Shown here in pieces: positions 28,301-46,300 of a stretch of DNA of 64,000 nt (positions within the stretch are counted from its first letter, which is position 1; the number at the start of each line of letters is the position of its first letter). Source of the stretch: Cinnamomum chago (lineage: Eukaryota > Streptophyta > Magnoliopsida > Laurales > Lauraceae); contig CP142453.1 of assembly GCA_038049695.1 (NCBI GenBank), forward strand, positions 114,778,001 to 114,842,000. The letters run 5' to 3'. Under the pieces are notes generated by a model, which was not told the DNA's origin, made no database searches, and worked only from the letters and a program-made list of their open reading frames with translations. A program made the position numbers and the translations under genes.

Positions 28301-31300
28301 CTTCAGCAAGAAAATCATTGTTTTTGTTTGACCGTCTAAGCACATAGCATGGGGGATTCTTCTATTTGATTTCCATGTTAATGCATGCCAGGTATGTGCC
28401 CAATTCACTTTTCTGACATTTGCAGTTTAGAAAGAGCAGCCAGCAAGGTTCACTAAGGAATGGATCAAACCTCAAAAAAGGAAGATTAGAACAATGATGT
28501 TTTAAGCAGGATTATAGTATTACACAAAGCATTTCTTAATTTTGATTCTGCTTTATTTTTTATACTGAAGAATTTAGAATACACGAAATAAATAATGTAG
28601 ATATGACTTCTATATTTCATGTTTTTTTTTTTTTAACTTTCTTCAAATAAATAAAAAACATACTAAAGGAATTATTTCAAAAGAAAGCAATGCAACACAC
28701 CTGAGCCAAATATGAATCTGGGAAATATAGGTCTCCAATGTTATCTTGCCTAGCCACCTGCAGAACAAACAAGTGTGTGTGTGTGTGTGTGTGTGTGTGT
28801 GTGTGAGAGAGAGAGAGAGAGAGAGAGAGAGAGAGAGAGAGAGAGAGAGAGAGAGAGAGAGAGATGGCATTACGGTACTTATGCAAAAAGGGTCAAAGAG
28901 TAACTTCGAAGCTGTTGCGTGAAATTTCGCAAGCAAATGTAAACACTGAGCACACATGAAGAAGAAAGTGATTATTAAGAATTATCAGTTCCTTGCCAGC
29001 AACCAAAATGTGAATACATGCATACTGTCAATGGTTAACAATACCCACGTTATAGGGATCCATGATGTGTAAGGATGGAACTTATTGTATGTAACCTTGT
29101 CCAGCTTGTAAATATTTTCATACCACAAATAACCAACCTACAATGAAAGAGAGAGATTGAAAAGATAATAGCAACAGAGATTGATAAGAAAAGCCTAAAA
29201 CGAGAACGGCAATAGATTAAACTGTTTATAAGAATGGAGATTTATTTAGAAAGACCAACAGTGGCAAAAACTTGCAACTGACCACTAAGGAAAGTCCCAC
29301 AATGCCTGTTTTAATTGACAACCTCCGCTTGGTGTCAGTTTCCTCTAACTTCTCCATCCACTTTTCAACCTAGATTATCAGCAGCATGTACAATGAAAAG
29401 GCAATGCCTTCAATCATCGAGGGTTTGATAATAAGAATTTCTGTTGTATCGATACAATGATCTGGAGCTAGTGTTCAAGAAATTTACAGTTGGGTGATAG
29501 TATGCATATATCATTCCAATGATCCAGATGTAGCGATCAAGGCCTGATCTGAAATGCCATTCATGTAAGAGAGGAAATTTTCCTTTCGAAGGATCTGGAT
29601 CTTGGTACCCTGCACTCAAGAAGCTTCATTATGCTTGCAGATAAGAAGCAACTAGCTGGACAATGTAAGGGATAATAAAGAAAGAATATAACATTTCTAA
29701 CTACCTAGTAGAAATGCCAAAGGACTCCAGATAAGGTCAAAAACTCCAGGAACTTCCCAAATCAGAATTACCACCAAAAAACATGAGATAATCTTCACAG
29801 CCATCACTGTCCCATTCTCATTATACTTGTTAAAAATGCCAAGTGCTCCATACACCATAAGAGTAAAAAGAGTGTGCATGGGACAGATATAATACAGCAT
29901 ATAGTCATTATTAAGCACAATGCAGCAAAAAGTCACCACAAAATTTAGTCGCCACATCATCTGCACACAAACATTCAAGAAATATTAATCTAAGTTTGAT
30001 ATAGGAACAACGATGGAGATCACCTCCAACAGTGAAAATGATCATTTGGCACACTAAAAGTCACCTGAGCAAAACGTGCAAGGCTAAAATCCTTCCGGAT
30101 GTAGTAATAGGAGAAATTCCCAAATCCAGTCATCCAGACATAGGCAGCAATGAATATTCGTATTGCATTATAAATCTCAGCCGCAGCAAAGTAATGGTAC
30201 ATCAAAAATAACACCTGTGGACAACATACAACAAAATGAATATTCATTTTTTTGTAAAAAAAAATAATACAGTTTTAGCAAAAACTAAAAAAAAAGAATA
30301 CAGAGCTTCACTTTGCAGTTTTATATACCACATATAAGCAGGCACAAAGAAGATGAGCAGTGGCCAACACACTCACGGTTGACTGGTGTTGGCACTTCGG
30401 TTTGAATACATGCCCAGGGATCCATCCATGGATCCTCAAGTTATAGTATCATGCCTATACTATTACCCCAATGTGTGGAGAGAGAGAGAGAGAGAGAGAG
30501 AGAGAGAGAGAGAGAGAGAGAGAGAGAGAGAGAGAGAATTTATCTGATGTACAATCAGTATGACCACAAAATAGAAACACAATTTTACAGGAAATACATT
30601 GATCGTATATATGGGTAACAAATTGGTGACTCTAGACATCTGGATCATAATTTTGCACCTCTTAAACTGTAGAAGATAACAGGCCCAGCAGGCCCAGTCC
30701 ATGGGCCCAGCCCATGTGCCAAGCCCACTCATGGGATATACACAAATCTGTACATGATTAGATTTAGTCCCAAATTTCTCTCCTTCTATGTATAGGATGT
30801 AATTGATTCTTTCCATTCTTTTGTTATTCTGATTTGTATCTAATTTGTAATCTTTACTTAATTAGAGCCTTGATTAAGGCATCAGATCAATATAAATATG
30901 ATAGTCGATGCTCTGTGTTGGCACGACCTTCTCCCACTGTGATTCTTCTTCTTCCTCTCCCTTGTTCACATATTATTTCATGGTATCAGAGCACTGTGGG
31001 ATCCCTCCATATCAGTTCCATCTCTTCTCACGCATTTGAAGACTCTCTGTCTCAGCAGAATCTCTGTCGTCATTCTGCAAGGTGACCATCCAAGGTGGGC
31101 CATCTTTCGATCATCCAGAAATAAAAAAAAAATACTCACCTCCACAGTGGTCGCCCCTCTTCTCCAAGATTTATGGGCATTTTTTTAGGATTTTTAGCAC
31201 ATCAGAGGTAGGCCATCTACTGCCACTTGTATTTTCCCAGTTTTACAAGATAATTGTTATCAGATCCGTTCAATTTTGCGGATTTTCATCAGTTTGCCTT

Positions 31301-43300: not shown

Positions 43301-46300
43301 TGGAGGGATCCCACAGTGCTCTGATACCATGAAATATTATGTAAACAAGGGAGAGGAAGAAGAAGAATCACAGTGGGAGAAGGTCATGCCAACACAGAGC
43401 ATCGACTATCATATTTATATTGATATGATGCCTTAATCAAGGCTCTAATTAAGTAAAGATTACAAAATAGATACAAATCAGAATAACAAAAGAATGGAAA
43501 GAATCAATTATATCCTATACATAAAAGGAGAGAAATTAGGGACTAAATCTAATCATGTACAAATTTGTGTATATCCCATGAGTGGGCTTGGGACATGGGC
43601 TGGGCCTGCTAGGCCTGTTATCTTCTACATCATGCTCCAGTTCTACTATTTTGAAAGCACCCCAATTTACTACCATGTGGGTTGAACTTGACACTGGACT
43701 GAATCCTTGAACAGCTATAATCTTTTTTAATGATATATTTTTGAAGGTCACAGTACACAACTAACTTTATGCAAAAAAAGGAGTACACAACTAACTTGAT
43801 TTGATCAGGATGATCTTTGAGCCATTCCCGATCCCCACATTAAGACCTTTTTCAAGGATGGCTTGGCACGGCCTGCTCTGTAACACTGGGAGAAGATAAA
43901 AAGGTTAGGGGGGAGGAGTTGGATTTAAGGGTTTCTCCATGTCCTACCTTTGTGTAAAAAGTGGCAGCTTCATGCAGAAGGGCCTCAAAATTGTCCAAAT
44001 CCTATCAGAAGTGGTAAGGGCTGCATTTGAAGGGTTCCCCCATGATCTACCTTAGTGAAAAAAGTGGCAACCCCATGGGGATACACTTTTAAGGGCCTCA
44101 AAATTGTCCAAATCCTAGTTGTTAGACAAAGTTGATTGAGTCAAAATTTGCAGATCAATCCAAAGGTTTATGAAACTCAAATGAGTGCCGAACTTGGTGA
44201 ATGCTAATTTATTAGAAGAGAAGGCGGAGTAACTGTGGGGGCTTAGATTGATCATAGGGTAGGCTTGGAAGCATGACAATCAGCGGGAGGGTAAGGGTCT
44301 AAATGGTTTCCCCTTGGCAAAAAATGGTAACCATTATGAGAGGTAAGCTTTTGAGGGCCTCAAAGTTATCAAAATTCTAGCCTATAGATAAAGTCGAATG
44401 GGTGCCAAATTAGCAACCTTTGGAACTTAGATGAATTTCATATTTGGTTGAGTACTGTTGACAAGAGAGAGAGAGAGAAGTCAAATGGGTACCAAATTAG
44501 CAGCCTATGGTGTGGAACTTAACCAAACCAAACCAAACCAGACCAAGCCTTTTCCCACTAGGTGGGGTCGGCTATATGGATTTGACGACGCCAATCAAAT
44601 CTGTTTAGGGCCATGTCCTCCGTTAGATCCATGTAGACAAGGTCATGTTTAATAGTTTCTTTCCAACTTCTCTTGGGTCTCCCTCTCCCTCTCCTACTCC
44701 GTGCAATCTCCATGCTTTCACACCTTTTAACAGGTGCCTCCGTTGGGCGCCTTCTAACATGGCCGAACCATCTCAGTCGATTTTCTCTCATTTTATCTTT
44801 AATCGGTGTTATTCTTACTTTGCCCCTAATCTCCTCATTCCTAATCCTATCTCTTCTTGTGATCCCGCACATCCATCTTAGCATTCTCATCTCTGCAACT
44901 TCCATTATTTTAACATGATTATGTTTTACTGCCCAACACTCTGATCCATATAACAACGCTGGACGTACCGCCACCTTATAATACTTTCCTTTAACCTTGA
45001 GGGGGACTTTCCGATCACACAAGACCCCCGAAGCACTCCTCCATTTGGTCCACCCGGCCTGAATCTTGTGACTTACTTCATTATCAATCTCTCTATCCTG
45101 TTGCACCATAGATCCAAGGTACCTAAAGTTTTCTTTCTCTACAATCTTTTGTGTGCCCAAACTTACTTCTAAGTTAGCGGGTGTCCTACTTTGACTAAAC
45201 TTGCATTCCATATATTCCATCATGCAACGACTTAGCCTAAACCCTTTTGTCTCTAACGTATTCCGCCACAATTCTAGCTTAGCATTCACTCCTTCTCTCG
45301 TCTTATCCACTAAAGCAATGTCATCAGCAAATAACATACACCATGGCACCTCATCCATAACTTGGGCAAACAAGTACGGGCTTAACGCTGAGCCTTGGTG
45401 TAGACCAATTGTGATAGGAAACTCTTTAGTCTCTCTGCCAGTTGTTCTTATAGATGGTGTGGAACTTAGATGGATTTTATATTTGGTTGAGTGCTGAAGA
45501 AGGGGGGGATATTTGGTTGAGTGCTGAAGAAGGGGGGGGGGGGGGGGGGGGGGGGGGATCATCTTATATCCTTTGGACTAGAGGTTTGGTGGGCCCCTAT
45601 CCACAGCCGTTTCCACCATCCCACAATGTTAACTTCTGATAATAAAAAGCATGTATTCAAATATGACCACCTCACTAAAGCAATGGAATAGGTACAGGTT
45701 TTCAATTACTTTCTTCTTCATGATGACTTCAATTTTAAAAAATAAAGAATACAGTAATCATGCATGAACTCTAGCAAGCATAAAAAGCCAGAAGGATAGG
45801 TACCTTTTTAGAGTCTGAAAACAGATTTGTCCGGTCACATATGTAGAAGTAGATTAGAAGTGCCCCAAATTCAGCCCTAAACAGCATTGATTATAAGTAT
45901 GCAACTACAACCAGAAAGGAAAAGGAATCATAAATGCTGATTAAAGGTGATTGCTACTTATGAAATGCAAATGCTTACATGGCTCTTAAAGCTGCTCGAT
46001 TTTCAAGCAAGAAAGATTCATCCATCCAAAAGAACCTAGAATTTAAAAACAATACTAGAAAAGGTAAGAAAAACATGTTTTGAATGGACCTAATTTGAGA
46101 GTATCAACAGAATAAATGTCCTCTGTACCTGATTAGGTTCACTCGGACAGATGAACTTTGAAATTTAGCAGATGCTGATTTTGCAAGGCCTCCTTCAAGC
46201 AGAACAGCCCGATCATCTTCTTTGATAGTCACATTTTCTAGTTCAACCAGATTGATATCTGAATGACTGCAACCATTAAAATGCTTTCAGCTACTAAATA

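Follow-up and report, generated by a model that had tools for sequence, protein, structure and literature searches.

Two young copia retrotransposons inserted tail to tail around exon 6 of an RWA-type gene in Cinnamomum chago

In hominoids, two Alu elements, a pair of about 300 bp, lie in reverse orientation in the introns flanking exon 6 of TBXT; the loss of this exon keeps the reading frame, is reported to be independent of the sequence of the repeat, and has been tested in animals together with its phenotype (PMC10901737). In Arabidopsis, the transcript of RPP7 is described as ending at the 5' long terminal repeat (LTR) of an intronic copia element, COPIA-R7, unless EDM2 and H3K9me2 suppress this (PMC7529245), and for Mu killer of maize, which lies beside gene transcription and duplicates part of an active DNA transposon in inverted form, a hairpin has been proposed as the trigger of silencing (PMC3440606). 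Surveys of plant circular RNAs (circRNAs) covered by a review (PMC11276256) found complementary flanking introns to be rare, with the exception of maize, where 17.3% of the circRNA flanks hold LINE1-like elements (of the long interspersed nuclear element, LINE, type) and their reverse-complementary pairs. The locus described here was found in 64,000 nucleotides of Cinnamomum chago DNA (the window; assembly GCA_038049695.1, contig CP142453.1, positions 114,778,001 to 114,842,000). It consists of a cell-wall acetylation gene of the RWA type into whose introns 6 and 5 two complete, very young copia elements of one family, referred to as A and B, respectively, were separately inserted, tail to tail around exon 6.

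As in TBXT, each of the two introns flanking an exon that can be lost in frame holds a repeat of one family, and the two repeats point in opposite directions; here they are plant LTR elements of 5.4 kb, and exon loss is a prediction. With RPP7 as reported it shares a copia element in a host-gene intron whose LTR may be able to end transcripts early, whereas the Arabidopsis gene holds one element with tested control by EDM2 and H3K9me2 and the RWA-type gene holds two, B in sense and A in antisense orientation. Like the Mu killer described in maize, it has inverted transposon copies in the range of gene transcription; unlike Mu killer, these are two complete and separately inserted retrotransposons, and any silencing by them is conjectural. 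Pairs of transposons in reverse orientation around circularized plant exons are known from the reviewed maize work, there as a genome-wide association with LINE-like elements and here as a single copia locus.

Both elements show the hallmarks of Ty1/copia retrotransposons, namely paired LTRs with TG...CA ends, a 5-bp target-site duplication (TSD), and a primer-binding sequence and a polypurine tract next to the LTRs (Table 1). The primer-binding sequence TGGTATCAGAGC, which we take to match the initiator methionine tRNA, adjoins the 5' LTR in A as well as in B, and the purine-rich TTTGAGGGGGAG directly precedes the 3' LTR. Pfam searches of the region 31607-35818 of A detected gag, zinc knuckle, Pol_BBD, rve, SH3_retrovirus, and RVT_2 domains, and the same set from gag to RVT_2 was recovered from B (38495-42706). 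The order within pol is copia-like in both open reading frames (ORFs), with the integrase (rve, residues 565-662) preceding the reverse transcriptase (RVT_2, residues 915-1155). Since both frames are without a stop, A and B may be autonomous.

The LTRs date both insertions as recent. Within A they differ at 0 of 310 aligned sites (plus one 3-base gap) and within B at 1 of 300. At the rice substitution rate of 1.3e-8 per site per year, this would place the insertion of B at about 0.13 million years ago and that of A at under about 0.4 million years, with older ages in slow-growing species. Alignment of A with the reverse complement of B yielded 5,269 identical bases over 5,418 aligned sites (97.2%; 96.6-96.8% by BLAST) and 6 gaps totalling 36 bases. 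The remaining 149 substitutions far exceed the divergence of each element's own LTR pair, which indicates that A and B derive from different sources and inserted independently and recently. Divergence between the two ORFs was lower at nonsynonymous (dN 0.0117) than at synonymous sites (dS 0.0664; ratio about 0.18), consistent with diverged source elements evolving under protein constraint.

Other origins of the inverted arrangement were considered and rejected. A block duplication of one element from the other does not agree with the different TSDs or with the A-B divergence, and an inversion or gene conversion between the arms does not agree with TSDs that pair correctly within elements, with an exon 6 on the strand of its gene, and with LTRs that are closest within elements; the correct TSD pairing and the orientation of exon 6 speak against an inversion in particular. 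Insertions with LTRs so similar would be young enough to be heterozygous, and A and B could then reside on different homologous chromosomes and have been joined in one contig, so that the inverted repeat would exist in no real molecule. Such an assembly chimera is considered very improbable: the perfect TSD pair of each element and the orientation of exon 6 oppose a collapse or inversion, though not a haplotype switch within the spacer, and each LTR resembles its partner in the same element more than the LTRs of the other element. An earlier note made from the letters of this DNA had described two young, near-identical copia elements of about 5.4 kb, 2.1 kb apart and with different TSDs (TAAAC and TCATG), around exon 6. 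TSDs, element lengths, and spacer agree with that description, and near-identical is a fair term at 97.2%, though one that passes over substitutions far in excess of the LTR-pair differences.

Table 1. Coordinates of the RWA-type gene and of the two copia elements within the 64,000-nt window.
Feature	Position	Strand	Remarks
RWA-type gene (Cas1_AcylT)	25354..49230	-	15 coding exons, 552 aa with intron 12 removed
RWA intron 5	37845..45803	-	7,959 nt; contains element B and a LINE-like reverse-transcriptase fragment
RWA exon 6	37686..37844	-	159 nt, phase 0/0, residues 132-184; hydrophobic segment 136-154 and a 12-residue stretch
RWA intron 6	30215..37685	-	7,471 nt; contains element A
RWA intron 12	28758..28882	-	125 nt; donor (28882) AT-AAGT, not GT-AAGT
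Element A, full-length copia LTR retrotransposon in RWA intron 6	30668..36116	+	antisense to RWA; 5,449 bp, TG...CA
Element A LTRs	30668-30980 / 35807-36116	+	313/310 bp
Element A TSD TAAAC	30663-30667 and 36117-36121		perfect 5-bp pair
Element A gag-pol ORF	31562..35818	+	1418 aa from TTG; ATG at 31610; without internal stop
Element B, full-length copia of A's family, in RWA intron 5	38207..43629	-	sense to RWA; 5,423 bp
Element B LTRs	43629-43330 / 38506-38207	-	300/300 bp
Element B TSD TCATG	38202-38206 and 43630-43634		perfect 5-bp pair
Element B gag-pol ORF	38495..42751	-	1418 aa from TTG; without internal stop
Spacer (loop) between the arms	36117..38206		2,090 bp; holds exon 6

The host gene encodes a protein with a match to Cas1_AcylT (PF07779; 301.9 bits, profile positions 70-476 of 482) that spans most of its length. 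We take it to be an RWA protein, and not another Cas1p relative, because of its presumed homology to the RWA proteins of Arabidopsis; exon borders and frame were set from this homology and from the Cas1_AcylT match. A search for a solved structure of an RWA relative gave 0 sequence hits at E<=0.001. The insertions account for about 5.4 kb of each of the two giant introns, and the remaining 12 introns are far shorter (six of 93-118 nt, two of 125 and 145 nt, and four of 858-2,206 nt). On the minus strand, the last base of exon 5 is 45804 and the first of exon 7 is 30214. Intron 5 additionally holds a LINE-like reverse-transcriptase fragment (44525-45044; RVT_1 match in the ORF 44558-45562), a second copy of which, in the same orientation and 95.6% identical, lies upstream of the gene at 57310-57827.

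The 3' LTRs of A and B both face exon 6, with B in sense orientation upstream of this exon and A in antisense orientation downstream. A polymerase transcribing the gene thus reaches the sense element B before exon 6 and A. The likeliest overall state of the locus, in which we place about as much belief as doubt, is that of tolerated intronic elements with mostly normal splicing and some early termination. A and B would act as silenced intronic insertions, and the transcript would usually join exons 5, 6, and 7 normally. The main cost would arise at B, whose LTRs could offer poly(A) sites at which some transcripts stop once exon 5 is passed, as reported for COPIA-R7 in RPP7. Because exon 6 is preceded by B in sense orientation, early polyadenylation in the LTRs of B appears at least as likely an effect as looping of exon 6 and would compete with all of the RNA effects proposed for this locus. 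Besides RPP7, a precedent is the premature polyadenylation within intronic transposable elements that is reported to follow a loss of heterochromatic marks (PMC10241880). Transcripts running on through A would carry a near-perfect hairpin of 5.4 kb, giving some substrate for dicer and, to a smaller extent, some RNA with exon 6 skipped or back-spliced. Several points weigh against this reading. The steps after insertion are putative, and a canonical AATAAA was not found on either strand of the four LTRs. The motif AATATAAA, present in sense in all four, can equally be explained as a promoter TATA box, and the length of the arms could make skipping of exon 6 common and not rare.

Frequent skipping is the outcome expected from an exon trap of the TBXT type, in which the arms would pair in the pre-mRNA and place the donor of exon 5 next to the acceptor of exon 7, so that exon 6 would be skipped to a substantial extent, with or without formation of a circle. 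The layout of such a trap, inverted complementary repeats in both introns flanking one exon, is present here, and an inverted repeat of 5.4 kb in which each arm has its own 5-bp TSD is not a match by chance. The longest perfect run between the arms is 146 nt, and pairing of the inner 150/150 nt was predicted at -253.8 kcal/mol, compared to -39 to -45 for 5 shuffles. A and B also form the only inverted pair between different introns of the gene when its 14 introns are compared by blastn on the minus strand, without dust, at E<=1e-3. This comparison gave 7 raw rows, of which 6 represent the A/B pair, LTR cross-matches, and mirror images, and 1 is a palindrome within intron 6. In the whole window (E<=1e-5, dust on) the 3 inverted matches listed were all A/B or LTR cross-matches, and the spacer itself holds three weak short inverted repeats of 16-25 nt (72-88%). 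From the literature, an artificial 297/297 inverted pair is reported to have yielded Tbxt lacking exon 6 in differentiated mouse embryonic stem cells (PMC10901737), and flanking repeats of at least 40 nt are described as sufficient for circularization in an over-expression context in grape (PMC11276256). The same review, however, cites complementary flanks of >15 nt around only 46 of 6,074 exonic circRNAs in rice and 1 of 5,152 in Arabidopsis, and states that stable hairpins can inhibit circularization. Moreover, the A arm begins 1.57 kb past the exon 6 donor, so that intron 5 may be spliced before A is transcribed, and the splice sites of exon 6 are the standard ones, AG at the acceptor and GT at the donor. 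Substantial looping is regarded as unlikely. In intron 6, a 30-nt palindrome (93% matched; 30227-30256, minus strand) is separated by only about a dozen bases from the acceptor of exon 7, where it could fold into a small hairpin.

The earlier note had proposed that the paired arms loop out exon 6, yielding a circle or an in-frame transcript lacking the exon, and that they feed small interfering RNAs (siRNAs). Its borders for exons 5, 6, and 7 (37686-37844 for exon 6) and the length, phase, and residues of exon 6 were recovered without change, and the geometry of long inverted arms with one exon in the loop, together with the animal precedent, supports its reading in part. The plant surveys, the ordinary 0/0 phase, and a product that is probably inactive count against it. 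Neither the sense orientation of B, transcribed ahead of exon 6 and A, nor the unusual donor of intron 12 is brought up in the note. The preserved frame is unremarkable because 7 of the 13 internal exons (exons 2-14) are a multiple of 3 in length, and it was therefore rejected as evidence for a special design. A structural RNA was rejected as well for the region 25000-50000, in which Rfam gave 0 matches at gathering thresholds.

Loss of exon 6 would probably change the membrane topology of the protein, since the exon carries a strong hydrophobic segment with a mean hydropathy of 2.17, a value that no other segment ahead of residue 286 reached when the protein was scanned crudely. Without the exon, the Cas1_AcylT score fell from 301.9 to 241.0 bits; of the 53 amino acids encoded by exon 6 alone, the last 19 matched this family (E 1.9e-5, 24.2 bits), below the 27.3-bit family cut-off. 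R180 in exon 6 and H191 in exon 7 are spaced as in the R/K-X10-H motif. In OafA, a bacterial acyltransferase, neither residue of this motif is reported to be dispensable, with <1% of the signal remaining after either R14A or H25A (PMC7448272). For CASD1, H446 is described as the positional equivalent of H25 of the related OafB, as required for activity, and as conserved in RWA proteins (PMC13043746). H191 may accordingly represent the conserved histidine of the acyltransferase motif and R180 its arginine partner. The spacing as such is not significant (2 occurrences in 552 aa, at 180 and 444, vs. 1.16 expected in 2,000 shuffles), and the case for the motif thus rests on the homology reported in these papers. 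At its threshold the crude hydropathy scan called no segment over residues 185-231, where the helix with H191 was placed, and a 189-aa piece searched against Pfam (E<=10) matched Cas1_AcylT and two DUFs below cut-off, and no bacterial acyltransferase family. If H191 is assigned correctly, joining exon 5 to exon 7 would drop the arginine and leave the histidine, and the product would probably lack activity and more likely be dead or interfering than a useful isoform.

The tail-to-tail layout could also have made the locus a source of silencing comparable to Mu killer. Read-through RNA, whether started at the RWA promoter or in one of the two 3' LTRs, would fold into a hairpin of whole elements, and the resulting siRNAs would silence the copia family genome-wide and possibly include siRNAs of exon 6. 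A transcript that runs past the 3' LTR of one element would continue through exon 6 into the antisense strand of the other, and transcription of RWA would thus not be needed for a hairpin to form. The arms match perfectly in 85 runs of 21 nt or longer, and perfect runs of 24 nt or longer cover 4,570 of 5,418 nt. For Mu killer, whose partial inverted duplication is one of mudrA, it has been proposed that transcripts reading through from the gene beside it form a hairpin of ~4 kb (PMC3440606), but the same source describes short antisense transcripts, and not gene-driven read-through, where Mu killer silences, with a possible contribution of minor longer transcripts. At the RWA-type gene, any poly(A) sites in the LTRs of B would halt transcripts before they reach A. 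A silencing locus of this type is regarded as improbable, on a par with substantial looping. A combination of the two, for which there is a slim chance, would be a self-made off-switch: coding copies that came to lie tail to tail by chance in a transcribed gene would give rise, in RWA pre-mRNA or by 3' LTR read-through, to a hairpin that is diced and silences its own family genome-wide, at the cost to the host of RWA RNA that is circular or lacks exon 6 and of exon-6 siRNAs. If true, the locus would combine an exon trap of the TBXT type with a counterpart of Mu killer made of retrotransposons.

The gene shows a further peculiarity away from the insertions. Whereas 13 of its 14 introns have GT-AG borders, intron 12 begins with AT, and reading into it gives the residues FA followed at once by a stop. 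The donor base would fit deamination of a CpG in GC-GTAAGT, and the AT may reflect a splice-site mutation (in which case this RWA copy may already be impaired), an assembly error, a polymorphism, or a rare AT-AG intron. Exon 12 has a length of 63 nt and hence could also be skipped in frame; should the gene skip an exon at all, it is as good a candidate as exon 6. Intron 12 consists mostly of (CT)n(CA)n, and its GA/CT tract and CA tract reach close to the acceptor. Long GA/CT tracts occur in three introns, at 27659-27729 (intron 14), 28805-28864 (intron 12), and 30478-30537 (intron 6).

Elsewhere in the window, matches to the PCC domain were obtained on the minus strand at 53964-54257 and 58898-59248 (39.5 and 25.5 bits; cut-off 25), which probably represent exons of one gene upstream of RWA, presumably of the AT-hook type; the upstream LINE-like copy sits between them. 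The plus strand at 21376-22047 encodes the C-terminal part of a gene similar to mannose-1-phosphate guanylyltransferase (GMPPB_C, NTP_transferase).

A literature search for plant inverted-repeat intronic retrotransposons with exon skipping or circRNA returned no plant paper by title, and nothing is claimed beyond that search; RWA was absent among the matches listed in a search combining it with circRNA, exon skipping, or intronic transposable elements. Intronic copia elements, silencing by hairpin loci, and exons enclosed by inverted pairs of transposons are each known already; their occurrence together, and with two elements that are complete and coding, makes this an extreme case. If exon 6 is skipped, the locus would provide a natural plant test of the TBXT exon-trap model, with arms about 18 times longer than Alu. 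If the hairpin is diced, it would test whether chance inverted insertions in genes trigger the silencing of young retrotransposons, and if neither occurs, it would show the tolerance of plant splicing to extreme intronic inverted repeats.

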